IMG/VR virus record: IMGVR_UViG_3300035698_017524
Span: 1-44,224 of that record
Length of the DNA stretch: 44,224 nt
Origin: a virus
Direction: 5' to 3' (one strand)
The notes under the pieces are model-generated. The model was not told the origin of the DNA. It did no database searches and was given only the letters and a program-made list of their open reading frames with translations. The position numbers and the translations under genes were made by a program. Positions 13,207 to 31,614 of the stretch are shown piece by piece (the stretch's first letter is position 1; each line of letters starts with the position of its first letter).

Positions 13207-13854
13207 ATGAAAATTAGAGATTATATAAAATTTATAAACGAAGACAGAATAGGGTTTGATGATATTGATGGTTTCCGTGAAGAACAAGAAGAATTCTTAA
13301 ATGGTAATAATGATGATATAAACAATAGAGAGGATGATTATGCTTATTTAAATGATGAGTTAGATAAACTAAACAGAGAAACAGATAATAGACAGAAAAC
13401 TTATAAAACCTATGACGACTGGGCAGAAGAGGATGAAGAGGATGTGGATGAAGAAGAATTAAGATACTTCAGAAGACATCACAAAGAAGAAGAGGAAGAA
13501 GAAGAATTTTATGGCAATGAAGATGAAGATAGTGAAACAATGTCTGACCTAATTGGACTACTATTACAGATGTTTCCAAAATCCGTAGATGTTAATATAG
13601 AAGGAACACCAGAAGAAATTACTATGTATTTCCCTATGAGATATTATGGATCAACTTTAACTGATATAATTAAAATATTTGAAGTTTTAAATAAATTAAG
13701 TAAAGATGTATTACCAGAATTTGATGATTATGTTGATATGTATTTCAGAAAGGGTAAGAATAACATAGTGATAACTTTCTCAAATAGAGATTACTATAGA
13801 AATTCAGGCAATATCAACTATGATAACTCAGGTAGAAATTTTAATGCATTTTAA
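13207..13854 (+). CDS. Acidic protein with capsid-targeting-like N-terminus
   Basis: A 215-residue protein whose first 12 residues, MKIRDYIKFINE, resemble the capsid-targeting sequence of T4 internal proteins (MKTYQEFIAE), including an I-x-E site for a gp21-type protease. Residues 15-110 are low-complexity and strongly acidic (runs of Glu and Asp). Residues 115-195 look like a folded domain (SVDVNIEGTPEEITMYFPMRYYG and on), and the tail is Asn/Tyr-rich. It starts one base after the M20 peptidase stop. If the targeting reading is right, the protein is packaged in the prohead and trimmed there. No enzymatic motif is visible. Confidence 0.65.
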   Translation: MKIRDYIKFINEDRIGFDDIDGFREEQEEFLNGNNDDINNREDDYAYLNDELDKLNRETDNRQKTYKTYDDWAEEDEEDVDEEELRYFRRHHKEEEEEEEFYGNEDEDSETMSDLIGLLLQMFPKSVDVNIEGTPEEITMYFPMRYYGSTLTDIIKIFEVLNKLSKDVLPEFDDYVDMYFRKGKNNIVITFSNRDYYRNSGNINYDNSGRNFNAF

Positions 13855-13866
13855 TTTAAACTTATT

Positions 13867-13896
13867 TTGATTTCTGGAATATTATATATATATTTG
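13867..13896 (+). promoter_or_regulatory. Bacteroidetes-type promoter of the tmRNA gene
   Basis: TTG (13867-13869), 19 nt spacer, then TATATTTG (13889-13896), matching the Bacteroidetes primary sigma factor consensus TTG-N17-23-TAnnTTTG. The tmRNA 5' end (GGGGGTG) begins 16 nt after the -7 element. Confidence 0.65.
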
Positions 13897-13911: not shown

Positions 13912-14283
13912 GGGGGTGTTTTAGAATAGATTCGCAGATTGGTTGTAATTATGCAAGTATCGGATTGTTAATTAACCGATTCATAAATTAAATAACATAT
14001 TTTTAAACGGCAACGTTAATGAAGTAGGATCACGTGAAGATTTAGTAGCGTCTCTACAAAACAATTTGCTTTTCACAGAAGAGCTTGAAACTGTTTAAGT
14101 TTCTAAACTTCTTGACCAGAATCACACCGGTTTAAAAAATGTGAAATTTATTTTTTCTATTTTTTAGAATTTGTCAAAAAAATTAGATATTTTGTTAATT
14201 TCGAAAAATTGACTAAACTTGTAAATGAATAGTTATTATTAACTGAGGAAGACACGGGGAGCAGTACCTCGTCATCTCCACAA
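13912..14283 (+). ncRNA. ssrA: tmRNA (transfer-messenger RNA)
   Basis: About 372 nt with the tmRNA plan. The acceptor stem GGGGGTG (13912-13918) pairs with CATCTCC (14273-14279), all seven positions including two G-U pairs. AGATTCGCAG resembles the tmRNA D-loop. PK1 is visible: ATCGG (13959-13963) pairs with CCGAT (13976-13980), and loop GTTAATTAA (13967-13975) pairs with TTAAATAAC (13988-13996), 8 of 9. The likely resume codon is GGC at 14009, 12 nt after PK1, opening a 29-residue tag frame that starts GNVNEVG, ends TEELETV and stops at TAA 14096-14098. Two segments of P2 pair (GGTTG with TAACT, GCAAG with CTTGT). The 3' end reads CTCCACAA, so CCA is not fully encoded. Oddities are a T-arm loop that is not TTCRANY and a tag not ending in Ala-Ala. 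The RNA would rescue stalled ribosomes and tag nascent peptides. It has its own promoter and terminator. Confidence 0.78.
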
Positions 14284-14286
14284 AAG

Positions 14287-14313
14287 AAAAAACCACTTAA
14301 TTGTGGTTTTTTT
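14287..14313 (+). terminator. Rho-independent terminator of the tmRNA gene
   Basis: AAAAAACCAC (14287-14296) pairs with GTGGTTTTTT (14303-14312) across TTAATT, with the T run ending at 14313. It starts within a few bases of the tmRNA 3' end. Confidence 0.88.
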
Positions 14314-14353
14314 ATTTTTAAACATATTACCAATACACAATATAATTATTATT

Positions 14354-14815
14354 ATGATAAACGAATTTAAAGGTAGGTGGTTTTTCTTATCGAATTTCTA
14401 CCCGTGTGAAATAACACACCAAGGAATAACATACAAGACTGTAGAAGCATATTATGTCGCTATGAAAGTTAATGATGAACAATTAATCAACGGTAAATAT
14501 TATACACCTGGTGATTTCCGTGAAATGATAGCTTTAATACCAGAACCGGGCATCACTAAAAAAATAGGACAAAAAGTCAAATTAAGAAAAGACTGGGACA
14601 CATATAAACTAGAAGTTATGAATTGGGGTGTTCGTGAAAAATTCAAATACCCAAAATTAGCAGAGAAATTAATCGACACCGGTGATGAAGAATTAATCGA
14701 AGGTAACTGGTGGCATGATAATTTTTATGGATCTTGCACCTGTACTAAATGTGCTAATAAAGGTCGCAATGAATTGGGTAAAATATTAATGAATGTTCGT
14801 GATGATTTCAAATAG
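14354..14815 (+). CDS. NADAR-domain protein (YbiA-like)
   Basis: The 153-residue protein is a full NADAR domain: FKGRWFFLSNFYPCEI (residues 5-20), ITYKTVEAYYVAMK (25-38, with the conserved Glu31), LIEGNWWHDNFYG (114-126) and GRNELGKILMNVR (137-149). NADAR proteins act on NAD/ADP-ribose derivatives. YbiA cleaves riboflavin precursors, and NADAR domains paired with DarT-type toxins remove ADP-ribose from guanine in DNA. A CxCxxC cluster (SCTCTKCANK) near residue 128 is an unusual extra. The start at 14354 is chosen because the domain begins there; an upstream GTG-led extension at 14303 reads through the tmRNA terminator and is hydrophobic nonsense. The last 8 nt overlap the convergent GIY-YIG gene. 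Confidence 0.85.
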   Translation: MINEFKGRWFFLSNFYPCEITHQGITYKTVEAYYVAMKVNDEQLINGKYYTPGDFREMIALIPEPGITKKIGQKVKLRKDWDTYKLEVMNWGVREKFKYPKLAEKLIDTGDEELIEGNWWHDNFYGSCTCTKCANKGRNELGKILMNVRDDFK

Positions 14816-15443
14816 TCCAACCTTTGTGAGTTCTTCTCTTCCCACTCGCAACTAAACAAAGTTTGCTATTACTTAAATTATTCTTTATACAAAATAATTT
14901 CATATTAGTGAATGTTATTACCTCACCTTCTGGGCTAATCATCGTATAAGTTTTTTGATTATGTTCAATTGAACCCCTAATAGTATTATCTGATGGTTTT
15001 TTACCTCTATTCAATTCCGACAATTTCTTTTTCGTAGCATCGGACATTTTTTTACCTTTATGAGATTCCGATAATTTCCTTTTCGTAGCATCGGATGCTT
15101 TTTTACCTTTATTAGATTCTGATATTTTCCTTTTTGTTTCTTCAGACAATCTTCTATTTTTACCACCAGTTACCAAATTATAACCATTAGGTGATAATGA
15201 GTTATAAAAATTAATATAATAAATTTCTTTCTCGTTCAACTCTTCTATATTTTCTGCTTTATCTATTTCCTCAATAAAAAAAATCTCTTTACCATACTTA
15301 TTTATTGAATTTGTTATAGCCATCCCATTTCTTTTTAAAGTACACTGCCATAAATGTCTACTCCACCTTTTTTCAAGAGAACCTACAGTTTGTCCAATAT
15401 AAACTTTATCATTTATATTATTTGTTATTTTATATATTACCAT
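14808..15443 (-). CDS. GIY-YIG homing endonuclease with NUMOD3 repeats
   Basis: The 211 residues open with the GIY-YIG nuclease core: VIYKITNNINDKVYIGQT (residues 2-19), the conserved Arg in LEKRWSRH, and NSLSPNGYNLVTGG. Three NUMOD3-type DNA-binding repeats follow at about residues 98-150 (SEETKRKISESNKGKK, SDATKRKLSESHKGKK, SDATKKKLSELNRGKK). The C-terminus has a helix-turn-helix-like segment ending HKGW. It is a free-standing mobile gene inserted on the opposite strand behind the NADAR gene, which it overlaps by 8 nt. TTAATATATA lies 4 nt upstream of its start. Confidence 0.9.
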   Translation of the reverse strand: MVIYKITNNINDKVYIGQTVGSLEKRWSRHLWQCTLKRNGMAITNSINKYGKEIFFIEEIDKAENIEELNEKEIYYINFYNSLSPNGYNLVTGGKNRRLSEETKRKISESNKGKKASDATKRKLSESHKGKKMSDATKKKLSELNRGKKPSDNTIRGSIEHNQKTYTMISPEGEVITFTNMKLFCIKNNLSNSKLCLVASGKRRTHKGWTI

Positions 15444-15447
15444 ATTT

Positions 15448-15457
15448 TATATATTAA
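15448..15457 (-). promoter_or_regulatory. TTAATATATA element before GIY-YIG gene
   Basis: Exact 10-mer on the minus strand, 4 nt before the start codon at 15443. Confidence 0.45.
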
Positions 15458-15537
15458 AATAATTTATCTACCCAGTAATTTCCAATCTTAATTTATAGAT
15501 AATTAGAAGCTATACTTACATAAAACTGTTTTGTATT

Positions 15538-15547
15538 TTAATATATA
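15538..15547 (+). promoter_or_regulatory. TTAATATATA element before 15554 gene
   Basis: Exact 10-mer ending 6 nt before the ATG at 15554. Confidence 0.45.
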
Positions 15548-15553
15548 TTCTAT

Positions 15554-15847
15554 ATGAAAAATAATAGAGTATTAAATATATCTAATAATGTTTTGAAATT
15601 TTTAGAAGAAAGTGAAATTAGCAACTGGGAAGATTTCAAGAAAATGGGTAAATTTGATTATGACATAATAGATAATCTAATCTTACATGAAGCAAAAGAT
15701 AGTGATGAAGTTGATGAAATAAAATTCATTATAAGAATAAGATTATCGAATAAAAACCAACTTGAAACATATTTGAAAGAACTAGAATATAAAGAAGAAT
15801 ACGAAAGATGTCAAATTATCATAAAAGAGATGAAAAACCTACTTTAA
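15554..15847 (+). CDS. Small helical protein of unknown function
   Basis: The 97 residues are rich in Glu, Asp, Lys, Asn and Leu and look all-helical (FLEESEISNWEDFKKMGKF, then YLKELEYKEEYERCQIIIKEM). No family is recognised. A TTAATATATA element precedes it by 6 nt. Its 3' end overlaps the convergent minus-strand gene by 9 nt. Confidence 0.65.
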   Translation: MKNNRVLNISNNVLKFLEESEISNWEDFKKMGKFDYDIIDNLILHEAKDSDEVDEIKFIIRIRLSNKNQLETYLKELEYKEEYERCQIIIKEMKNLL

Positions 15848-16510
15848 TATCTGATCTATCTTTATATCTCTAACTACTTGAATTTGTGGATTCTCATCAT
15901 TAATAATATGTATAATAGCCGAATTACCAACATCATAAGAAAATTCAAATTCCGCAACCAATTTTGGCATAATACCATCAATCAATTGAAAATCAATATT
16001 CCTAATATTTATAATTATATCATTACATAAGTGTATTTTATAATCACATGAATGATTCAAGAAATATGTTTTCTCGTATAAAGAACCAATTATTTCTATA
16101 TATTTATTAAAAGAATTTAAACTAACATCAGCCACAGGTTTAAAACTTTCTTTAATATAAATAGAATTGTGTATTTTTGGTGGTATTATAACATTCTTAA
16201 AATCTCTATTTGATAAGATATCATCAATATTTAAATCTATTTCGTATGTATAACCGATTCCTTCTCCCTCATCATCCAACTTTTTAAAAATTTTATCATA
16301 AATAAGATTCAACATCTCAATTCTAAATTGGTTTTTTACTCCAACTTCGAAATCACCAAATTCTAAATCTCTATAATGTGCTTGGTTTTCATAAGCCATG
16401 CTAACTGAACACCTTTCAAAATTAGTAAGATATTCATCAACTATAAATAGTTTATCATCTATACCATTTATTAAGAAATCTTTTTCAAATTTTATATTAT
16501 TTAATTCCAT
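15839..16510 (-). CDS. Protein of unknown function (223 aa)
   Basis: A soluble acidic protein, not recognised, with alternating strands and helices and no membrane segment or obvious catalytic motif. It opens MELNNIKFEKDFLINGIDDK. Its first 10 nt overlap the end of the D12 methyltransferase gene, so it is translated downstream of that gene from the same minus-strand transcript. Confidence 0.65.
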   Translation of the reverse strand: MELNNIKFEKDFLINGIDDKLFIVDEYLTNFERCSVSMAYENQAHYRDLEFGDFEVGVKNQFRIEMLNLIYDKIFKKLDDEGEGIGYTYEIDLNIDDILSNRDFKNVIIPPKIHNSIYIKESFKPVADVSLNSFNKYIEIIGSLYEKTYFLNHSCDYKIHLCNDIIINIRNIDFQLIDGIMPKLVAEFEFSYDVGNSAIIHIINDENPQIQVVRDIKIDQILK

Positions 16511-17466
16511 AGAAGAAGTTCACCGGTTTCTGGGTCATAGTTCATTATCAATAACTCAATACCTTTGGCACTAACAACATCAGAATCTTTCTTAGAGGAT
16601 GAGTTGTTACCACCTTGTGCAGAACTTCTAAAAACTTCCTTCTCTACCCAGATATATTTATCTTTAGGTAATAGTTCTTCCAATAATGGGAAGTAGTAAT
16701 AGGAAAGTGACCATCTAGATTTTGTTTTTTTAAGTTGTTCTAAAAGTCTCCTGTGTGAAGCGGGTCCAAAAACACCATCAGTATCTGAACCATACCAAAA
16801 TAATCTTCTAGCATCATCTACACCCTTTGATTCATCAAATCTAGCATAAGGAGGATCTAAATAAAAGAAGGTATCTTCTGCATCATACTTATTTATTAGT
16901 TCCTCAAAATCAATACTATAGAATTCTGTAATTGATTCTAGCTTTGAGTTATATTTACCACTTTTAAGTTTATCAATTAAAACTTCTAACTTTAATCGAT
17001 TTTTTGATTTATCATATCCTGAGAAACCACCACCTCTTGGATAAACAGCACTAAAAGAAGATGTTATAAGGAAGGCATATATAGAAGCTTTTGCAAAGTC
17101 ACCTATTTCAAAATCAACATTGTCTAAAAAATCATTTCTTTGATATTCTTTATAGATTCCTTTATAAAAGTCCCATTTTTCTAATGGGTCTATTTTATCC
17201 GTTTTTAAGATAGTTTCTTTTAAATTTTCAAGAAACAGTATGAATTTATCAGGACTCTTACAGCACTTAAATAAATTAACCTGGTGATGATTTTTATCAT
17301 TATATATCACTCTATCAAATTTTAGATTTGGGTCGTCCATATACGTCCCCATTGCACCAGAAAAAGGTTCCACATATGTTGTAATACCACTTTTAGGTAT
17401 TCTTATATTTATAAAGTCTCTAAATTTTTTAGAACTCTTACCACCAAAGTATGCTGTTAAACTCAT
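16501..17466 (-). CDS. D12-class DNA adenine N6-methyltransferase (Dam-like)
   Basis: The 321-residue enzyme has the alpha-type adenine methyltransferase order: SLTAYFGGKSSK at the N-terminus, the SAM-binding motif YVEPFSGAMG (residues 31-40), a target-recognition region (about 65-180), and the catalytic motif FYLDPPYARF (DPPY at 204-207). It would transfer a methyl group from SAM to adenine in a specific site, probably protecting phage DNA from host restriction. It sits between an HNH endonuclease gene (4 nt upstream on the same strand) and the unknown 223-residue gene, which it overlaps by 10 nt. The C-terminal MNYDPETGE is echoed in a 13-codon frame at 18596. The other D12 gene at 34885 is only distantly similar. 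Confidence 0.9.
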   Translation of the reverse strand: MSLTAYFGGKSSKKFRDFINIRIPKSGITTYVEPFSGAMGTYMDDPNLKFDRVIYNDKNHHQVNLFKCCKSPDKFILFLENLKETILKTDKIDPLEKWDFYKGIYKEYQRNDFLDNVDFEIGDFAKASIYAFLITSSFSAVYPRGGGFSGYDKSKNRLKLEVLIDKLKSGKYNSKLESITEFYSIDFEELINKYDAEDTFFYLDPPYARFDESKGVDDARRLFWYGSDTDGVFGPASHRRLLEQLKKTKSRWSLSYYYFPLLEELLPKDKYIWVEKEVFRSSAQGGNNSSSKKDSDVVSAKGIELLIMNYDPETGELLLWN

Positions 17467-17470
17467 ATTA

Positions 17471-18385
17471 CTATATTTTTTCTTTTATATACTCATCTTT
17501 CATATAAGTTTTATATTTAAATAAAATTTCGTTTGATTCTGTAACCATTTTATTACCTTTTTTATTATTGACTAACTTACATAAAGGTCTTAGATTCTCC
17601 AAAGAATTAACCACACTAGGTGGGGTTTCGGGTTTAAAAGCAGATACAGGTATTATATGGTCTATTTGCCAATAATCACCATAATTATCCCAACACATAC
17701 AAGAAGTAAATAAAGATTCTATGTGTTCTTTTAGTTCTATATGTGAATATTTTAATAAATTTAAAGTACTATCAGACTTTTTAATATTTTTGCGATTTAA
17801 ATAGTTTCGTAGTAAATTACGCCAAGTGTGTATATGTATATTTTTCTTATATGAATCTTTATAATATGAACTCATGTCCCTTTTTCGCCTACTGTTAACC
17901 ACCTGATTAGTTCTACATGCCCTACAAACTCTCTTATACCTACCATTCACATTTAAAATATAATTCTCTATACTTTTTTTACTACCACAATTAGAACATA
18001 TTATATAACCTTTCTTCACTATATCATCATTTATTAAATCATATTTAACCCTTACTGTTTTTCTTTGTTTTTCTGTATTATTGAAATTTGCATCACCATA
18101 TTTATCTAGATTTGTTAATTTATTCTTAAACTGTGAACATGTATTCGAACAGGAATATATACCATATTTCTCAATATTTTTATTATATTTTTGATAACTT
18201 ATTTCCTTGTTACTCCCACATATATCACATTTAACATTTATTTTTAAATTAGAGGAAAAACTTAAATCACAGACAGGTATATTTATTTTTTTATTATATG
18301 TAACCTCATAACCAAGTGATTCGTAGTGATATATATTTAAATAGTTGATGGTTACTTTAATATATTTTGTCAATATCATAAACAT
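17471..18385 (-). CDS. HNH homing endonuclease with zinc-ribbon N-terminus
   Basis: The 304-residue protein carries an HNH nuclease near the C-terminus: YWQIDHIIPVSAF, then NSLENLRPLCKLVNNKKGNK. Two zinc ribbons lie before it (CDICG/CSNTC near residues 55-85 and CSNCG/CRAC near 130-160). The N-terminal 100 residues are homologous to the small protein at 6847-7227. The conserved MILT start of that relative suggests that the true start may be the second Met, ending the gene at 18379. It lies 4 nt upstream of the D12 methyltransferase gene on the same strand. It is a free-standing mobile gene candidate. TTAATATATA lies 22 nt before the start. Confidence 0.85.
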   Translation of the reverse strand: MFMILTKYIKVTINYLNIYHYESLGYEVTYNKKINIPVCDLSFSSNLKINVKCDICGSNKEISYQKYNKNIEKYGIYSCSNTCSQFKNKLTNLDKYGDANFNNTEKQRKTVRVKYDLINDDIVKKGYIICSNCGSKKSIENYILNVNGRYKRVCRACRTNQVVNSRRKRDMSSYYKDSYKKNIHIHTWRNLLRNYLNRKNIKKSDSTLNLLKYSHIELKEHIESLFTSCMCWDNYGDYWQIDHIIPVSAFKPETPPSVVNSLENLRPLCKLVNNKKGNKMVTESNEILFKYKTYMKDEYIKEKI

Positions 18386-19922: not shown

Positions 19923-22900
19923 ATGTCTAACCATAAAAACCTAATATTCTTCAATAAAGAGGGAGATTATCTAAACTTCAATTATAGCGATTCAAATGAT
20001 ATGTTTGAAGGTGATATTCTCTTCCATGAGAACACCAGTGATACATTCAAAACATATGGTATTTATATGTTAGAGAAGATACCATCTTTCGAATATGAAT
20101 TACCAGGTGAACTAACTACTAAAAAGTTCCAATTATTTAATGAGTATGGAATAAACTTCTATAACTCAAAATATACACAGGAAAAAATAACACAGATAGC
20201 ACCAGTAAACAATGATCCGAATTTTTATTCAAAATGGATATATGGTGATAATTTTGAAGTTAAATTCCCTATTGGAACACTAATATCATTCGATATTAGT
20301 TTCTTAGAATTCACTAATAGTGATAAGACATACACAGTCGTATCAAGTAAGAAAAATGCGATTATGATAATTTCACAAATAGATAATAACACATTCGAAG
20401 ATAATTATCAAAGTATTTATATCAACCCAAATAATTACACAAATCAAACAATATCAGGTGTAAATGCTATTGGTGTATATGATTACATTGACTTAGATTC
20501 ATATATTGAGAATTTATCAGATTGGAATGAACCAGAATTTTATAGTAATTTATTTAATGGTAAAAAATTGAATATAATAAATTCATTATCAAATAATACA
20601 ACAGTAACTATTAATAATTATAACCTACTTGATATAAATCATTTTGAATATCACTTAGAAAATACTGAATTACCAAGTGATAGTGATTTAATAATTGAAG
20701 TTATAACTAAGACAGATTTACCAAAAATATACGATAACTATATAAATATAGATAATAATTCTAATATTGAGGTGAACCCAAGTTATTACCCTGAGATATT
20801 AAAACCAGGGATAGAATTCAAAATAATAGGTTCTACTTTAAATGATGATATATTCTTCACAGTCGATTCTATGTTAGAATGGAATACTATCTACAACACA
20901 ACATATTTTGCTACACAATCACAAGTTTTATATGATAGTAAAATTTATGAATGTATAACAGGATATACACAGAGTTTTGGTACACAATCAACACAATTTA
21001 CAACACCTGCTAATGACACAATAAACTGGTCACCGACACCATCATATATCAAAGTCACACAATCAACAAATACTGAAAATATATACAATGGTCAATTATA
21101 TTTAACAACGAATAAATTTTATTTTTTACAAGAATGGAGAGAATCTGATATAGTAACACTATCAAGTGCCGCAGAAAAATATAAAGATGATTTAGAAATA
21201 TTCAATATCGATTTACAATTTGATAATGATATAAATTTATTGAAATCAGATTTAAAATATCCTAATAAATACGCAAATGTTAATTATTATTTTGATACAT
21301 TAGGTGCTTCATATTCAATTGGATCAGAAATTGTTAAAGTTGAAAAGATAATTGGGGTAGAAGAAGAATTAGAATACGAACTAAATAAAGATATATCAGA
21401 AAATTTTGAATACAATATAGTATTCACTGATATTGATGAGTATGGTATAAAGGTTATTATAAATGATATGGTTTATGATGAAGAAGTATCATGGGTTTAT
21501 AATGGTTCTAATATAGACATGACAAGAACTATAGACAAGACTTTAAGAAACTGGCTAAGCCGAAACTATATAACATTATATAGACTTGGGTTAAATACTG
21601 AAATTCAATACACTGGTAATTACACATCCGTGTTTAACAACTCAATAAAAATAACAACTGAGTTCCCTAATGTGCCAATAAAATTAAATGATGTATTAGT
21701 CGGCTCAACTGCAAATTTCTATGTAGAACATTCAACTGTTCTATTCTCAGAGATTGGGCCATATTTAAACATACAAATAAATGATACTGATTATGGAGTA
21801 ACTGCGAGTTACACAACAGGGACAAATGTTACAGACACAACACAAACTATAACTAAATGGGTAAATACTTATTCCGAAATTCTATTAGAATACGGAATAT
21901 TAGTTTCTAACATCAATGATTTATTAGAATTTAACTTTAAGAATCTTGATTCAAGATTAGACTACACAATAACAACAAATTTAGTAGATTTACCAGGATT
22001 AGATGGTCATATCATAACTGAAAGTTTAAAAGGAAACCACGGGGCATTAATCGCCTCAAATGAAGTTGTTTTGCCTGGATTAGGAGAATCACCGAATAAT
22101 TTATTACCAGGACAAACTTCATCAATAGAACCCGCTTCAGCTTTCACCGAACAAGGATTCGCAACAGGTATGGTATTTTCAATAAACAATTCTGAATGGA
22201 CTTGGGTAAACCAAGAATATAATATACAATACATCGATGAGGGTTGTTTGAATCTAAGTTATGAAGGTCCATTTTGGGGATTAACAAGTGCTATCTGCAC
22301 AACTTCACCATTCACAACTATATCATTTGATAGTGGATTTGAGATTTCTGCATGTACTGGTTCAACATCTGGTGGTTATAGCACTGTTATGTTTAGTTCA
22401 GCATTTAATACTGGATATAACACGACTTCTTATACAACTAATCAATTTAATTTAAGTGGTTATGAAGGTTCCGATAACTTCATCGACATCAAATACATAC
22501 AGTTAACTAATAAAATATACGTATTAGGTGACGGGTTATTAACGATTGATGCTTATACTTCAAATTATATGGAAACAATACCCGGACTAACACAAAGTAT
22601 TAAAATGGAATTCAATGAAGTAAACAATTATTTATATTGCTTATCTAACGATTATCTATACACAATAGACCCATTAACCAATACAATACTAAACACAACA
22701 ACCTTAAATGGTAACGGATATGATTTACAAATAAACTCTATAAATGGTGATATCTATATATCATATGATGATGTTGCACAAATAGACATATTACCATATA
22801 ATGATTTTACAATATACACAACAATACTAACATACGGAACTAGAGGTGGTAAAATGATTTTTAACACCCAAAATGAAACTATGTATATAACAACAGATGC

Positions 22901-25643
22901 AGACACTATACTAACTATTGATTCAGATAGAAATATAGAGACTATAATATCAGTAACAAATCTTGAGTACACTAATATATTCTTTGAGGATATAAATAAC
23001 TCAATATTCGTGTATAATACAACACAACTACTTAGAATCGACAATGATTATGATATAGAATTATTATCAATATCAACTGGATCATTCAATGAAATATTAT
23101 ATAATAATTTAACAAATGAATTAAACATATCAGATTCATCAAATAATATATCAAGTTATGATATATCAACCGAAGTTATAACACCAAAAATAATAGGTAA
23201 CTTTGGTTATTTAGAGATAAATCAATATGATGGTAATATATACCTATCATCAAATTTAACAGATTCAATATTAACATTGAACTCAACTACAAAATCAATA
23301 TTAAACAACACTACATTAACATCAGGTTCTACTAAGTTGGTTTATAACCCACAAAGAAAATCTATTTGGAGTATTCAACCAGATATAAATTCAATCGTAG
23401 AGATAGAAGTTAGCATAGAAACTACAATAACATCTGAAACAATAGAATATGACAATGTTGATGATAATGCATTTGGTACTTTAGATCCAAATTATGAAAC
23501 TAGAGAAAGTCTATGGTTAAAATCAAGAGAATATATCAGACAACCTAGAGAAAATTATGAAGATGAGGTAGAAGTAAAATATTATTGGAGATGGTTAACT
23601 GATGAAACTCCTGAATTTTTCTTATATGATTTCTCTGGAGAACAATTAACAACTTCTGGTTCTTATTCATACATTGGTGAAAAGCCATTATCGGATATTG
23701 TTTTAAATACTAAACCAAATAGAGATGTAAATCGTGTTACTCTACCACAATATCAACAAACAATTTTTGATGAGATAGAATATACACTACCTTTTATAGA
23801 TGATAGTGATGAGATAACATCTAATGTAGAACCATTACAATTATTCATAGGATTCAAATCTACTGAAGAGGGTGCACTGAGCTCAAAATTACAATTATTC
23901 AAAAAAGAAGATATATCATTTGATATCGACTCTGATGAATATACTAACATAGTATTAGATACACTAGATGATGGTGGTATCACAATAACAATAAATGAAA
24001 ACTCACCAGAAATATTCACACACAGAGGTCTAAAAAAAGAACAACTTATAGTGATATATCTAAGTGATATAACAAACAATGAAAATCAATATACATCAGA
24101 TAACACATCTTCAATATTTAAAATACGCAATGTGTTTACTAATCAATTAATATTAGATTTCATATCAGAAACAGACTCAATTACAAATGAGGAGACAACT
24201 ATAATAGGTTATCCTTCTTCTGGCGATACAACATATTTGAGATTTTCTTTGAAAGTTTCAGATAAACAAATTGGTGATTTTACTACTTATGGACAAACAG
24301 AAGACGAGGATGAAAGATTCAAAATTGAACTTGGTAATATTGGGAAATTAATAAACCCTGATGAAGTATTCATATTCAAAGAGTATGATATTCTAGAAGG
24401 TGGTATTGATTGGAAAATATTAAATAGAAAACGTAAAGAAATGTTAATGATGAAGCATTTAATATACCCATACATCGGTGCTTATAAATCAGTAATAAAT
24501 GCTATTAACTATTTTGGATATAATGATTTACAATTAAATGAGTATTATGAAAATACTGATAGTGGTTCAGTAAATTTCTCCAAACTATTCAAGGTTGAGA
24601 TTCCAGACATCTTTGATAATTCAGTAGATGGTTGGGAAGAAAATGATTTCATTGAAAATACTTACCCAAATGAGAATTTTGAACACACTAATCTTTTCAA
24701 TTTGACATATTTCATAACTGATAAAGATGGTAGTAATATCTTAAACTACACTTTAGATGAGATAATAATAAAACTACAAGGGCTAAAATTTTGGTTGAAG
24801 AGAAATATAATTCCATTAACACATAAAATTTTAGATATTACCGGTGAATCATTTGTTAAAAATGGACATTATATACAACATAGATTACACGATGTTAGAT
24901 ATTTTAATATTAATCAAAATATGACACCTATAACATTTAAGATGAATGAAACTTATTTATCACCAGTAAATTCTGGGTCACCAGTTTATACTTGTGCTAT
25001 TGATTTTTATTCAATAATTCCAGATGTTGGTACAGAAGACTATTACGTAGAGAAGCCAAAACCATACAACGACACAACATTAGAATTACCAGATAGCTTT
25101 GATATTAAAATAAGAACTTATAAAACACAAAAAGAATGGGAACCATTTACTACTTATTCAATTGGTGATAACATCAAATATTACGATAAGTTATACGAAT
25201 CTTCAATCGATTTAAATAGGATTAATAGCCCTCGTAAATATGAAGAATCACAAGAATGGTCAACAAATACAACCTATCAGACTGCAACTATTGTAGAATA
25301 CGAAAGAGATTACTTTGTATATAAAGGATCAACCGCTTCTCAATCAAATACTACACCAATTAATGATTCTATAAATTGGTTAAAGATAACAGAATGGAAA
25401 GAGATTGATTACAGACCAGTTCAAACTATTTCAGAATTTAGAAATAGTGAGAATTTAACACCATTCACATTTACTATTGATACAAATCTAGACCCATTTC
25501 TAGTAATAGAAGTGACATCAGATAATGGATATGGTGAAATCTATACTGATAGAAAAAATTATGAACTCAGATCATCAAATGATTTTGGAATAATGTCGCT
25601 AAGTGAGGTAACTGGGTTACCAAAACTATCAACTAACTTATAA
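19923..25643 (+). CDS. Giant structural protein, probable tail/baseplate or receptor-binding protein
   Basis: The 1906 residues are Asn-, Thr-, Ser- and Tyr-rich with almost no Cys, typical of phage tail structural proteins. Three segments look like small carbohydrate-binding (CBM5/12-like) modules of the form W-x-x-x-x-x-Y-x-x-x-x-x-V-x-Y-x-x-x-x-Y: near residues 317-374 (WNTIYNTTYFATQSQVLYDS), 1738-1765 (WEPFTTYSIGDNIKYYDKLY) and 1776-1822 (WSTNTTYQTATIVEYERDYF). Residues about 850-1160 repeat a strand pattern with 'xIYVxxxxxLxTID' units, resembling a beta-propeller. A segment near 1500-1545 (MKHLIYPYIGAYKSVINAIN) recurs in large tail proteins. The gene ends at a bidirectional terminator facing the tape-measure operon. 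I infer a baseplate or fibre role binding host surface glycans; no T4 homologue is identified. Confidence 0.65.
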   Translation: MSNHKNLIFFNKEGDYLNFNYSDSNDMFEGDILFHENTSDTFKTYGIYMLEKIPSFEYELPGELTTKKFQLFNEYGINFYNSKYTQEKITQIAPVNNDPNFYSKWIYGDNFEVKFPIGTLISFDISFLEFTNSDKTYTVVSSKKNAIMIISQIDNNTFEDNYQSIYINPNNYTNQTISGVNAIGVYDYIDLDSYIENLSDWNEPEFYSNLFNGKKLNIINSLSNNTTVTINNYNLLDINHFEYHLENTELPSDSDLIIEVITKTDLPKIYDNYINIDNNSNIEVNPSYYPEILKPGIEFKIIGSTLNDDIFFTVDSMLEWNTIYNTTYFATQSQVLYDSKIYECITGYTQSFGTQSTQFTTPANDTINWSPTPSYIKVTQSTNTENIYNGQLYLTTNKFYFLQEWRESDIVTLSSAAEKYKDDLEIFNIDLQFDNDINLLKSDLKYPNKYANVNYYFDTLGASYSIGSEIVKVEKIIGVEEELEYELNKDISENFEYNIVFTDIDEYGIKVIINDMVYDEEVSWVYNGSNIDMTRTIDKTLRNWLSRNYITLYRLGLNTEIQYTGNYTSVFNNSIKITTEFPNVPIKLNDVLVGSTANFYVEHSTVLFSEIGPYLNIQINDTDYGVTASYTTGTNVTDTTQTITKWVNTYSEILLEYGILVSNINDLLEFNFKNLDSRLDYTITTNLVDLPGLDGHIITESLKGNHGALIASNEVVLPGLGESPNNLLPGQTSSIEPASAFTEQGFATGMVFSINNSEWTWVNQEYNIQYIDEGCLNLSYEGPFWGLTSAICTTSPFTTISFDSGFEISACTGSTSGGYSTVMFSSAFNTGYNTTSYTTNQFNLSGYEGSDNFIDIKYIQLTNKIYVLGDGLLTIDAYTSNYMETIPGLTQSIKMEFNEVNNYLYCLSNDYLYTIDPLTNTILNTTTLNGNGYDLQINSINGDIYISYDDVAQIDILPYNDFTIYTTILTYGTRGGKMIFNTQNETMYITTDADTILTIDSDRNIETIISVTNLEYTNIFFEDINNSIFVYNTTQLLRIDNDYDIELLSISTGSFNEILYNNLTNELNISDSSNNISSYDISTEVITPKIIGNFGYLEINQYDGNIYLSSNLTDSILTLNSTTKSILNNTTLTSGSTKLVYNPQRKSIWSIQPDINSIVEIEVSIETTITSETIEYDNVDDNAFGTLDPNYETRESLWLKSREYIRQPRENYEDEVEVKYYWRWLTDETPEFFLYDFSGEQLTTSGSYSYIGEKPLSDIVLNTKPNRDVNRVTLPQYQQTIFDEIEYTLPFIDDSDEITSNVEPLQLFIGFKSTEEGALSSKLQLFKKEDISFDIDSDEYTNIVLDTLDDGGITITINENSPEIFTHRGLKKEQLIVIYLSDITNNENQYTSDNTSSIFKIRNVFTNQLILDFISETDSITNEETTIIGYPSSGDTTYLRFSLKVSDKQIGDFTTYGQTEDEDERFKIELGNIGKLINPDEVFIFKEYDILEGGIDWKILNRKRKEMLMMKHLIYPYIGAYKSVINAINYFGYNDLQLNEYYENTDSGSVNFSKLFKVEIPDIFDNSVDGWEENDFIENTYPNENFEHTNLFNLTYFITDKDGSNILNYTLDEIIIKLQGLKFWLKRNIIPLTHKILDITGESFVKNGHYIQHRLHDVRYFNINQNMTPITFKMNETYLSPVNSGSPVYTCAIDFYSIIPDVGTEDYYVEKPKPYNDTTLELPDSFDIKIRTYKTQKEWEPFTTYSIGDNIKYYDKLYESSIDLNRINSPRKYEESQEWSTNTTYQTATIVEYERDYFVYKGSTASQSNTTPINDSINWLKITEWKEIDYRPVQTISEFRNSENLTPFTFTIDTNLDPFLVIEVTSDNGYGEIYTDRKNYELRSSNDFGIMSLSEVTGLPKLSTNL

Positions 25644-27546: not shown

Positions 27547-30500
27547 TTATTTTGGAGATTTTTTACCTATTATTTTAAATGGTTTTGCTTCTTCATCTTC
27601 AGCATCAGCACTCATACCTAACATTTTGGAATCTAGACTTGTAGTTGACTTATCTATATTAGATAATAATCTAATAACCTCATCTAACTTAGAATCCATT
27701 GATGAATCTTTAATCTTTTTACCGATACTTAATCTATCACTAATTGATGTTGGTATTTTCCTATCAACATCACTAAATGATCCTCTATTAGATTCAACAT
27801 TAGGGTTGATTAGTTGATTGGTCAATCCACCCAAGCCTCTGAAATCAGATACATTCAATACCCTCATAGCAGAACCTAATTTTATCAATGATGTCGCTAA
27901 TTTATCATACCCTTCTGCCAAAGTAATCATTCGTCTAGCAACTTTAGAAATAGGGTCTTCGATGAAAAAACTACCAAAACCTTTTAATTTTTTATTATTT
28001 TCTAATTCTGATTCTGTTAATTTATTAACCAATGAATTGAAATCAATAATGTTTTGAGCAACATTTTTCATATAATTTGGGTCAATAACTGTATCTAAAT
28101 ATTGTTTCCCTGAGAAGAATATCTTAGCAACACTTACTATACTTTTAGCAATATATTTTGTCTTATCTACACCAATTAATAAATCTTTCACACCTTTATT
28201 TTTAAGCGCTTTTAATAATTTTGTAAATTTCCAAATTACACCACTTGGTGAAATAACCTTTTCAAAATTATCATTAATAAGTTTAGAACCCAAATATCTC
28301 TTTCCTCTATAAAATGTTTTAGCAACATCTATTATACTATCAGCTAAGAATCGAACTAATGTAGCACCCCCATCATCATATATTCTCTCAACCTTATTAG
28401 TCAATCTTATAAATTTTATTATAATACCATTTTTATGAATTAAGGTTTCGAAACCTTCACTAGCACCACCACCCGCTTCTAAATATTTTTTACCTGAATA
28501 GAAAGTTTTAGCAACACCAACTAAACTATCAACGACTATATTGAGTTTGTAAGCACTGAATGATTTACCCTTTTCACCATCTTTATACATAGAAGCAATT
28601 TTATTAACTAAAGTTATGTATTTAATTATAATACCATCTGAAGAAGTACTCAATACATATTTAGAGAAATTTTTTAACGATTTACCACTTTCAAATGATT
28701 TAGTATTTTTACCTACTTTTTTAGCAACACGTATCATCGAATTGAAAACTGCATCAAATTTTTCAATATGACTATCTTTCAATTCACGATCCTCAAATGA
28801 CTCAACTACATCAAAGAATTTATTTAATGCCGAACCAACATTCTTAGACCATACCGCCGTTGGGTAAACACCCCAATCGACCCCAGATATTTTTTTTGCC
28901 GCACCAGCCATAGCACCAGAAACTTTTATAATACCATCAGACATTTCTCTTATCACTTTATCACCACTTGATAGCCAACTTTTATTAGCCAAAGCATCAA
29001 AAACAGGAGTAAATGCACTAATTGCTGCACCAACACCCGCACCCCATTTTTTACTTGGGTAATCTTCACTAAATGTTGCTTTATTAGCAGCAAAAACATC
29101 TGCAGCTGCAACAATACCTTTAGAAACGGTCATAATACCCTGTGACATAGCTTCTGGACTATTATCATCTTGACTACTAAAGAATGAACTATCCGCAAGT
29201 GATGCATAAACAGGACCGAATGCACCAATGGCTAATCCAACACCCTTTGCCCACTCTTCAGGTGGAGCATCTTTAAAAGCAGCACTATTATTTGCAAAGA
29301 AACCAGCAGCAGTAATAATACCCTCACTAACAACCATAATAGCTTTTGCAAAATCATCTGGACCAACTCCACCATCAGTCAAGAAGCTCATAGCACTATT
29401 CCTAACTAACATCCCATAAACTGGTGAGAATGCACCTAACGCTATTGCTATTCCAGTTGCCCACTTTTCATCCGGCCCACCTTTATAAGTACCTTTTCTT
29501 AATGTGTATGAAACATCAACTATAGTCTCGGCTATATTTATAATCATTCCTTTCGCAGTTTCAAATGGATCAGTACCAGTAAAGAACTTAACAACTGATG
29601 CCGCCATTCCTATAGCACCCAATACTAATAAAATTGGTGTGAATGTAGCATATAACATAGTAGTAGCTAATGCCCATTTTCCCATACCATTTAATTTATA
29701 ATCACCTTTCGCTAATTCATGTGAAAGTTCATTAACAGTCTCGGCTATACTAACCATCATTGGTAAACCTACTACAAATGCGATAGCACCAATTGGAGTC
29801 ATTCCCATAACACCCAAAGCAACAATACCAACACCTAAAGGTAACATAGCAGAAATAACATCCAATGACCATAATACAGAAGGATATGTTTTATAACTAC
29901 CCTCACTCAATATAGCAGCTACTTTAACAACAGTTTTAGCTATTTCTAAAATTATAAAATTACCAATAATTATACCAATTGCACCAATACCAGACATCGC
30001 AATTAAACCCAATGCGACTGCTGCCATTCCAAATGGTAATATAGCAGCGACCACACCTAGTGACCATAATACAGAAGGGTGATTACCCTCATAATCTCCT
30101 TCATTTAAAATATGTGAAGATGCCATTATAGCAATTGCTAATACTAAAATCATAACAGATCCTAATAACAAACTAAGACCACCATCAGCCATAGCAATAT
30201 AACCAAATAAAACCATAGCAAGTCCAAATGGAATCAATGCTAAAGTAACACCTAGACACCATTCCCATTTAGGGTATTTATCATATTTACCAACTCCTAG
30301 AATATGTGAGGATATCATTATAGCAGTAGCAATTGCTATAATGGCAGCTCCACCTTTTAAAAGATCCCCATAATTCAACTTACCTAAAACCATCAATGGT
30401 ATTGACATAATTAATGAAATTATAGCTAATGTAAATCCCAATAATACTATCTTAAACAATTTAGCGAAACCAATATCAGCAGTTTCTACCAAAATATGTG

Positions 30501-31614
30501 AAGATAACATAATAGCTATCGACATAACAGTGAACACAACAGGTAATTTTAATAAATCTTCCCATTTCATTTTCCCTATCTCTTTCATAAGAGGCATAAT
30601 TGCATATGCTAATACTAAGAAAGTAACTGATATCCCTACTGATGTTAAGAATTGTTCTAAAGAAATAGGTGCCACATTAGATAAGAATTGTGAAGATAAC
30701 ATAATAGCAAGTGACATTGCAGGAAATAACACAGGTAACATAATCGCGGCAACTACTGCCACCTCAGGACTAATATCTTTAAGTGCTTTTATTATTTTAT
30801 TTAAACCAAATGATAAAACAACAAATACACCACCTATAAATATAGCACTAATTAATTGTTCTGTACCAATAGGCTTAACCAATCTTAAAATATATGATGA
30901 TAATGCAATACCTAATGATATTGCCGGTAAAATAAAAATTAATCCAATAGAAGCTTTTAAAACTTCACCCCATGACAAACCTTTAAATGATTGAATAACC
31001 TTACCCATAGTAGGCATTAATAACATAAATGCACCACCAATTAATATAGCAGTTAATAATTTCATAGGATTTACTGGCTTAACTAATGATAAGACCAATG
31101 ATGATAATGTTAAAGCAACTGACATCATAACCATAACTATAGATGCTATACCTGCCCGTTTTATATCAACATCCAGTGATGCTATCGCTAAAAATGCTAT
31201 TGATAAAATAGTTATTGCTAGTGCTAATGCTATAACTGATAAGAAATCAACTTTACCAACTAATTTAAATGCTAAACCAATAGCTAATACTGCTACTGCA
31301 ATTAATAATATCACACCTAAACCATCTTTAATCTTATTCCCTTTCTTGGAATCAACTTCAATACCTTCGGTTTTCTTACCCTCTTTCCCTTTAGAAAGTG
31401 CGATTATAGTTTCCTGGTTCTTTAATATTTTCGTAGTATCACTTTTAATACCTTTAATATCAGCAGATATCTCTTCTAATTGTTTACCAAAATCACCACC
31501 TTTTAATGCATCACCAGTGGGAGAATTTGATTCTTCCTTACTGTTTAAAGCATCAACTAATGCGTCCAGTCCTATACCTATGTTACTTAATGCGTCTAAT
31601 AATTTCTTATCCAT
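27547..31614 (-). CDS. Probable tail tape-measure protein, repeat-built and hydrophobic
   Basis: The 1355-residue protein has a soluble N-terminus (about 95 residues), then about 650 residues of alternating hydrophobic helices, then an amphipathic and finally basic C-terminus. It is built from units of roughly 65-75 residues. Early units end with SS[LYQH]xL (SSLVLSLVKP, SSYILRLVKP, SSQFLSNVAP, SSHILVET). Later units carry GxY-x-x-x-P-x-x-x-W-x-x-G/D-V (GDYEGNHPSVLWSLGVV, GSYKTYPSVLWSLDVI, GTYKGGPDEKWATGIAI, AFKDAPPEEWAKGVGLA, TFSEDYPSKKWGAGVGA). Length, repeats and hydrophobic core fit a tape-measure protein that sets tail length and is threaded into the host membrane. It has no visible resemblance to T4 gp29. 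Several minus-strand small genes follow it, as is usual for tail operons. Confidence 0.68.
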   Translation of the reverse strand: MDKKLLDALSNIGIGLDALVDALNSKEESNSPTGDALKGGDFGKQLEEISADIKGIKSDTTKILKNQETIIALSKGKEGKKTEGIEVDSKKGNKIKDGLGVILLIAVAVLAIGLAFKLVGKVDFLSVIALALAITILSIAFLAIASLDVDIKRAGIASIVMVMMSVALTLSSLVLSLVKPVNPMKLLTAILIGGAFMLLMPTMGKVIQSFKGLSWGEVLKASIGLIFILPAISLGIALSSYILRLVKPIGTEQLISAIFIGGVFVVLSFGLNKIIKALKDISPEVAVVAAIMLPVLFPAMSLAIMLSSQFLSNVAPISLEQFLTSVGISVTFLVLAYAIMPLMKEIGKMKWEDLLKLPVVFTVMSIAIMLSSHILVETADIGFAKLFKIVLLGFTLAIISLIMSIPLMVLGKLNYGDLLKGGAAIIAIATAIMISSHILGVGKYDKYPKWEWCLGVTLALIPFGLAMVLFGYIAMADGGLSLLLGSVMILVLAIAIMASSHILNEGDYEGNHPSVLWSLGVVAAILPFGMAAVALGLIAMSGIGAIGIIIGNFIILEIAKTVVKVAAILSEGSYKTYPSVLWSLDVISAMLPLGVGIVALGVMGMTPIGAIAFVVGLPMMVSIAETVNELSHELAKGDYKLNGMGKWALATTMLYATFTPILLVLGAIGMAASVVKFFTGTDPFETAKGMIINIAETIVDVSYTLRKGTYKGGPDEKWATGIAIALGAFSPVYGMLVRNSAMSFLTDGGVGPDDFAKAIMVVSEGIITAAGFFANNSAAFKDAPPEEWAKGVGLAIGAFGPVYASLADSSFFSSQDDNSPEAMSQGIMTVSKGIVAAADVFAANKATFSEDYPSKKWGAGVGAAISAFTPVFDALANKSWLSSGDKVIREMSDGIIKVSGAMAGAAKKISGVDWGVYPTAVWSKNVGSALNKFFDVVESFEDRELKDSHIEKFDAVFNSMIRVAKKVGKNTKSFESGKSLKNFSKYVLSTSSDGIIIKYITLVNKIASMYKDGEKGKSFSAYKLNIVVDSLVGVAKTFYSGKKYLEAGGGASEGFETLIHKNGIIIKFIRLTNKVERIYDDGGATLVRFLADSIIDVAKTFYRGKRYLGSKLINDNFEKVISPSGVIWKFTKLLKALKNKGVKDLLIGVDKTKYIAKSIVSVAKIFFSGKQYLDTVIDPNYMKNVAQNIIDFNSLVNKLTESELENNKKLKGFGSFFIEDPISKVARRMITLAEGYDKLATSLIKLGSAMRVLNVSDFRGLGGLTNQLINPNVESNRGSFSDVDRKIPTSISDRLSIGKKIKDSSMDSKLDEVIRLLSNIDKSTTSLDSKMLGMSADAEDEEAKPFKIIGKKSPK

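Follow-up and report, generated by a model that had tools for sequence, protein, structure and literature searches.

A predicted tmRNA with a drifted elbow and a long tag in huge T4-like phages, probably part of a phage-owned trans-translation system

The tmRNA locus and its surroundings

We analyzed a 44,224-nucleotide phage contig from IMG/VR (record IMGVR_UViG_3300035698_017524; henceforth the window), which codes for a T4-like portal protein and a capsid protein, and in which comparison with homologous sequences identifies a tmRNA gene at exactly 13912–14283 on the plus strand. The gene is flanked by an ORF ending at 13854 and by a NADAR-domain gene (14303–14815, plus strand; Pfam E = 2.9e-22) that follows immediately on the tmRNA terminator; as the listed GTG start of this gene overlaps the terminator, its true start is probably further downstream. 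Upstream of the tmRNA, the same strand carries a match, TATATTTG (13889–13896), to TAnnTTTG, the -7 promoter motif of the Bacteroidota type, 23 nt ahead of the mature 5′ end; motifs of this type precede the RNA in about two thirds of the 62 homologs described below. Downstream, a terminator search recovered an intrinsic terminator-like hairpin with a T tract (14286–14313, plus strand), and the region holds two such hairpins against a mean of 0.1 in shuffled sequences. These two elements correspond to the host-type promoter and the terminator that the original prediction placed around the gene.

All the RNA parts named in that prediction, namely an acceptor stem, a D-loop-like segment, a two-stem PK1 pseudoknot and a resume-codon frame, were likewise located on the plus strand. 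The 5′ strand of the acceptor stem, GGGGGTG (13912–13918), pairs with 14273–14279 and sets G3 opposite U70; the 3′ strand, CATCTCC, is followed by the discriminator A and then by CAA (together 14273–14283), such that the RNA ends in ACAA rather than ACCA, with an incomplete CCA as claimed, and CCA is encoded in just 7 of the 62 relatives. The D-loop, TTTTAGAATAGATTCGCAG (13919–13937), displays AG at 13923–13924, where canonical relatives have GG. The inner H2 helix is formed by GCAAG (13953–13957) and CTTGT (14218–14222), a pairing seen to covary, and encloses PK1 (13959–13996) with its stem 1, ATCGG/CCGAT (13959–13963/13976–13980), and stem 2, GTTA/TAAC (13967–13970/13993–13996). The resume-frame signal TAAAC (14004–14008) supplies the equivalents of U85, A86, R87, N88 and Y89, the published rule being U85, A86, a purine at 87 and a pyrimidine at 89 (PMC2481249). 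The tag reading frame, GNVNEVGSREDLVASLQNNLLFTEELETV, then runs from 14009 to a TAA stop at 14096–14098 and specifies the 29 residues that had been predicted. Finally, the T-arm (14254–14272) has a covarying stem, ACGGG(G)/(C)CTCGT, and a loop that reads AGCAGTA if the stem is given 6 bp and GAGCAGTAC if it is given 5 bp; the usual TTCRANY loop on a 5-bp stem is absent, and the original prediction had likewise noted a T-loop other than TTCRANY.

The standard searches proposed for the element did not return it: an Rfam scan of the region at the gathering threshold gave zero matches, and ARAGORN called no gene at 13912–14283. The best full-length alignment to the tmRNA model RF00023 does cover 13912–14283, precisely the predicted interval, but scores 12.5 bits where the cut-off is 47 bits; as RF00023 gives 16–26 bits to ordinary tRNAs of related huge phages, this score by itself is no proof. 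The minimum free energy is also unremarkable (z = -1.49), and hence the case for a tmRNA depends on comparison with relatives. In a scan by E-value, higher-scoring Rfam matches to families other than tmRNA (DUF3800-I, AgrB, BSnc120 and others) cluster on the terminator hairpin, fall under their own cut-offs and were set aside.

In the neighboring part of the window (14808–18385, minus strand), genes for GIY-YIG/NUMOD3 and HNH endonucleases surround a D12 methyltransferase gene. The methyltransferase gene lies on the minus strand here, but relatives (e.g., locus L002) have it in plus orientation with respect to their tmRNA, which points to a local rearrangement with probable homing endonucleases. 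Pfam returned no match for a 1906-aa ORF (19923–25643, plus strand) or a 1355-aa ORF (27547–31614, minus strand).

Homologous RNAs, compensatory changes and the elbow

A blastn search recovered the element in two huge phages, at 74.5% identity in LR745206 (634 kb) and 72.6% in LR756502 (642 kb). DNA-pattern scans added about 45 nhmmer-confirmed IMG/VR loci, while a search with the tag alignment found the tag encoded at 85 viral loci (IMG/VR) and at none in 84,980 bacterial and archaeal genomes. Searches with the upstream neighbor protein and with an exact 21-mer from the T-arm gave no relatives. A further blastn match in LR756500 looks like chance; this 462-kb phage has its own, ARAGORN-callable and canonical tmRNA elsewhere (94509–94921; L096), with the short tag GNNAEMRMAA. 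Altogether, 62 distinct homologous RNAs from IMG/VR and from LR745206 and LR756502 could be parsed. In many loci the major capsid gene lies upstream of the tmRNA gene, and 71 of the fetched loci contain the window's D12 methyltransferase gene; given these common neighborhoods, the tmRNA genes are very probably orthologs. The most divergent members, L076 and L194, have a TTC T-loop and the same tag core and are called as tmRNA by ARAGORN, one of them adjoining the family capsid gene and the other the family methyltransferase gene. A bit-score cut-off or an ARAGORN call is an operational rather than a biological yardstick: the window RNA scores below the former and lacks the latter, and these two relatives have the ARAGORN call. 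The carriers of the family appear to be very large viruses of Bacteroidota-type bacteria. We also observed dense tRNA arrays in LR756502 and LR745206 (L097–L099), with repeated Asp, Gln, Lys and Phe isoacceptors.

Compensatory changes were found, as the original prediction had asked, in both PK1 and the acceptor stem. RNAalifold, without being supplied the layout, recovered the acceptor, a long H2, PK1 stem 1 and the T-arm. Over 65 pairs in 23 sequences, with both PK1 stems added, 96.7% of the cells are paired against at most 51.3% in slid controls, 30 pairs show double changes, and the covariation score is 0.377 against at most 0.136 when slid; none of 500 shuffles reached any of the observed covariation measures. 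By element, the acceptor forms 7/7 pairs in all 62 homologs, with covariation at positions 5 and 6; H2 (helices 2 and 3) is paired in 96–100% of cells with double changes, its inner part in 100% with GC to AU double changes in relatives (GCAGG/CCTGT, GCAGAC/GTCTGT); PK1 stem 1 is 100% paired with an AU/GC swap and stem 2 84% paired with CG/UA/AU swaps; and the covarying T-stem is paired in 99.2% of cells. The alanine identity pair, G3:U70, occurs in 62/62 homologs, the window RNA combining it with the discriminator A. In the homologs, too, the U-A-R-N-Y signal lies ahead of the resume codon, once tags beginning NV were shifted by one Gly codon in the alignment. One might still read the low RF00023 score, the silence of ARAGORN and the ordinary folding energy as signs of a decaying tmRNA remnant or of an AT-rich false positive, but the strength of the compensatory changes and the persistence of the element across dozens of independent phage contigs make this extremely improbable, the covariation ruling out a degenerate remnant.

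The family departs from convention at the elbow. In tRNA-like RNAs generally, few features vary as little as the TTC T-loop and the contact it makes with the D-loop. An xGCRR-type T-loop is found in 48/62 homologs, GGCRGTR, usually with a flanking sixth stem pair, being the form of most RNAs; other loops in the family include a six-residue TTCGNN, AGCGATA, AGCGAAA, TGCAATA and CGCAATA, and the TTCGA loop, together with a D-loop GG, in L076 and L193/L194. All 48 xGC-type RNAs lack the D-loop GG, its first G being A (46) or T (2), and the GG is confined to relatives of the TTC or ATCG type (6/14 non-xGC RNAs), an association with p = 5e-5 by a Fisher test that makes no correction for common descent. 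The second G of the D-loop is retained, as is C56, from which we infer that the G19–C56 contact is kept and the 18–55 contact changed. The tree of the neighboring methyltransferase is poorly resolved, and neither a single origin nor a direction of the T-loop change is readable from it. Since canonical and altered forms are homologous, TTCRANY is best regarded as a usual, and not a defining, feature of tmRNAs.

The tag, the phage-encoded partners and the fate of tagged proteins

The tag has 29 residues in most relatives and 27–30 overall, with all indels in frame. Among 41 distinct 29-codon tags its frame is open in every case, while the other two frames are closed in 41/41 and 40/41. The homologs share a core, NEVxxxEDLVxALxNN, with V6, E10, V13, L16, N18 and N19 (almost) invariant; its EDLVxALxNN part is probably helical. 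The last residue is A or V in 62/62 tags; none ends in LAA, the terminus of the ClpXP-read ssrA degron, and the window tag ends in ETV. The dN/dS is moderately low (0.55 in frame vs 0.71 and 0.85 for the two alternative frames), an argument weakened by the strongly covarying hairpins that the tag-coding RNA forms (columns 120–180 of alignment A4), which indicate that peptide and RNA are constrained together. As an observation on its own, the alternation of Arg9/Ala14 codons with Lys or Asn9/Phe14 suggests that peptide changes are coupled via RNA pairing. Searches of PDB, Pfam and other phage proteins gave no convincing match to the tag; an HU-like N-terminus was considered and is supported by no search.

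Full-length SmpB proteins with a DKR tail are encoded by the complete phages LR745206 and LR756502 and by three large records from IMG/VR; none was found within the 44-kb fragment itself, and a phage SmpB like those of the relatives is the putative partner of the window RNA. The SmpBs of the three phages with the xGC T-loop have in common a one-residue insertion together with R(D/E)KK in the HxxxR loop; where these read R(D/E)KK, both SmpBs of TTC-type phages read RDRK, a hint, from five sequences, of co-evolution between SmpB and the elbow. The SmpB gene cluster is conserved in both complete phages (L027, L028), with a thioredoxin-like gene two genes upstream.

These phages also code for proteolytic machinery. 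A ClpC-like double-AAA ATPase with the UVR motif and a VGF loop and without the N domain is encoded by LR745206, LR756502 and a 436-kb record (L114, 256–2361; L115, 238–2361; L196, 1153–3285), such that the tag and this ATPase co-occur in three genomes, and LR745206 and LR756502 each code for two or three ClpPs. LR756500, with its own canonical tmRNA, has two ClpP-like genes but no N-domain-less ClpC-like ATPase.

The covariation, the resume-frame signal, G3:U70, the phage SmpB and the ARAGORN-called relatives uphold the original identification of a tmRNA, and a tmRNA with a drifted elbow within a phage-owned trans-translation system is the best reading of the locus. We are highly confident that the RNA is the tmRNA of a huge T4-like phage working as part of such a system. 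A different role, that of a decoy, has reportedly been put forward for mycobacteriophage DS6A and its TLD-only RNA. A decoy of this kind, tRNA-like and titrating the host SmpB or AlaRS without itself supporting tagging, would agree with an elbow that could impair ribosome function, and inhibition of tmRNA by a TLD-like molecule has been discussed (PMC4131195). We consider this quite improbable here, as a decoy needs none of the mRNA-like half, resume signal, open tag frame and stop that have been kept over wide divergence, and as the phages supply SmpB.

For a working tmRNA, the following course can be envisaged. Transcription by the host RNA polymerase probably begins at the promoter of the TAnnTTTG type (13889–13896) and ends at the 14286–14313 hairpin; CCA would be added after processing and the RNA charged by the host AlaRS via G3:U70. 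The phage SmpB would bind it and deliver it to stalled ribosomes, the host SmpB perhaps binding less well given the rewritten D-loop/T-loop elbow, and ribosomes stalled on broken mRNAs during infection would thus be freed. Translation would resume at GGC 14009, with the product gaining Ala plus the 29-residue tag, whose EDLVxALxNN core and terminal A/V may mark it for proteolysis.

The scheme is weakest where it concerns the fate of the tagged protein, with host Clp or Lon proteases as rivals. On account of the co-occurrence we favor, tentatively, degradation by the phage N-domain-less ClpC-like ATPase together with a phage or host ClpP. A routing of rescued peptides away from ClpXP, as the original prediction suggested, is possible; tags ending in A or V are not plainly anti-ClpX, and routing towards the phage's own Clp would fit at least as well, because the complete relatives carry their own Clp ATPase and ClpPs. 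It is also conceivable, at somewhat less than even chances, that the tmRNA works with host SmpB and host proteases only, with the tag as a weak ClpXP/ClpAP or Lon degron and the phage Clp proteins serving another purpose, a scenario that disputes only the last steps of the mechanism. Phage ClpP-like proteins are often head proteases, and those found here may serve capsid maturation, but the ones checked score best with true ClpP models, not head-maturation models. The invariable A or V terminus of the 62 tags is compatible with a host reader, and the reading of an extended tag by Lon is documented in Mycoplasma; on the other side stand the SmpBs retained by five large relatives and the elbow change, which makes binding by the host SmpB less certain.

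A stronger version of the phage-owned system would have the elbow (A18 facing G55, xGCRR) co-evolved with the phage SmpB, separate partners for the phage and host tmRNAs, and the tag as a phage-specific degron for the phage ClpC–ClpP. This full orthogonality is speculative and less likely than not; if true, the virus would have private control over the destruction of stalled products.

Relation to known trans-translation systems

Phage tmRNAs are already known (PMC4131195), and tmRNA and SmpB have been reported among huge phages by Al-Shayeb et al. (2020, PMC7162821), whose study also describes genomes of 634 and 642 kb. That study used ARAGORN, which misses the altered-elbow family, and we found no account of the tag, the elbow or a Clp link in its text. 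As ARAGORN and Rfam miss nearly all of the family, phage tmRNAs are probably under-counted. Within one phage lineage, orthologs with canonical, shortened and replaced T-loops and a concerted D-loop change offer natural material for studying recognition of the elbow by SmpB, RNase P and modification enzymes, and the co-occurring SmpB, ClpC-like ATPase and ClpPs present a testable case for ribosome rescue and proteolysis run by huge phages.

With the bacterial one-piece tmRNA (ssrA, RF00023) the family shares the G3:U70 acceptor, A73, the D-loop, H2, PK1, the U-A-R-N-Y signal, an in-frame tag with its stop and a length of ~370 nt; it differs in having xGCRR for TTCRA, usually a sixth T-stem pair, AG/TG for the D-loop GG and a 27–30-aa tag without LAA. 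The likeness to mycobacteriophage Bxz1 drawn in the original prediction is apt with regard to the tag: the phage-borne tmRNA of Momo, of the Bxz1 species, encodes ATDTDATVTDAEIEAFFAEEAAALV, a 25-aa tag that ends in ALV and not LAA. The Momo RNA differs in scoring 74 bits with RF00023, in being called by ARAGORN and in its unrelated tag sequence. The tmRNA of Bacillus phage G, another huge phage, also has a non-LAA tag (AKLNITNNELQVA, ending in QVA), but one of only 13 aa, and is called by ARAGORN, with 67.6 bits for RF00023. The Mycoplasma/Mesoplasma ssrA tag is similarly long and departs from LAA, with a protease switch by co-evolution, the extended Mycoplasma tag having been matched to Lon (Gur and Sauer 2008; Ge and Karzai 2009; both cited in PMC11986505); it differs in sequence, and the candidate reader in the phages is the co-occurring ClpC-like ATPase instead of Lon. 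Long non-LAA phage tags are thus already known from Momo (cf. the 13-aa tag of phage G), whereas what appears new, within the searches made, is a large phage tmRNA family overlooked by standard tools, with altered T- and D-loops, a conserved tag core and a phage SmpB and ClpC-like ATPase occurring alongside it.
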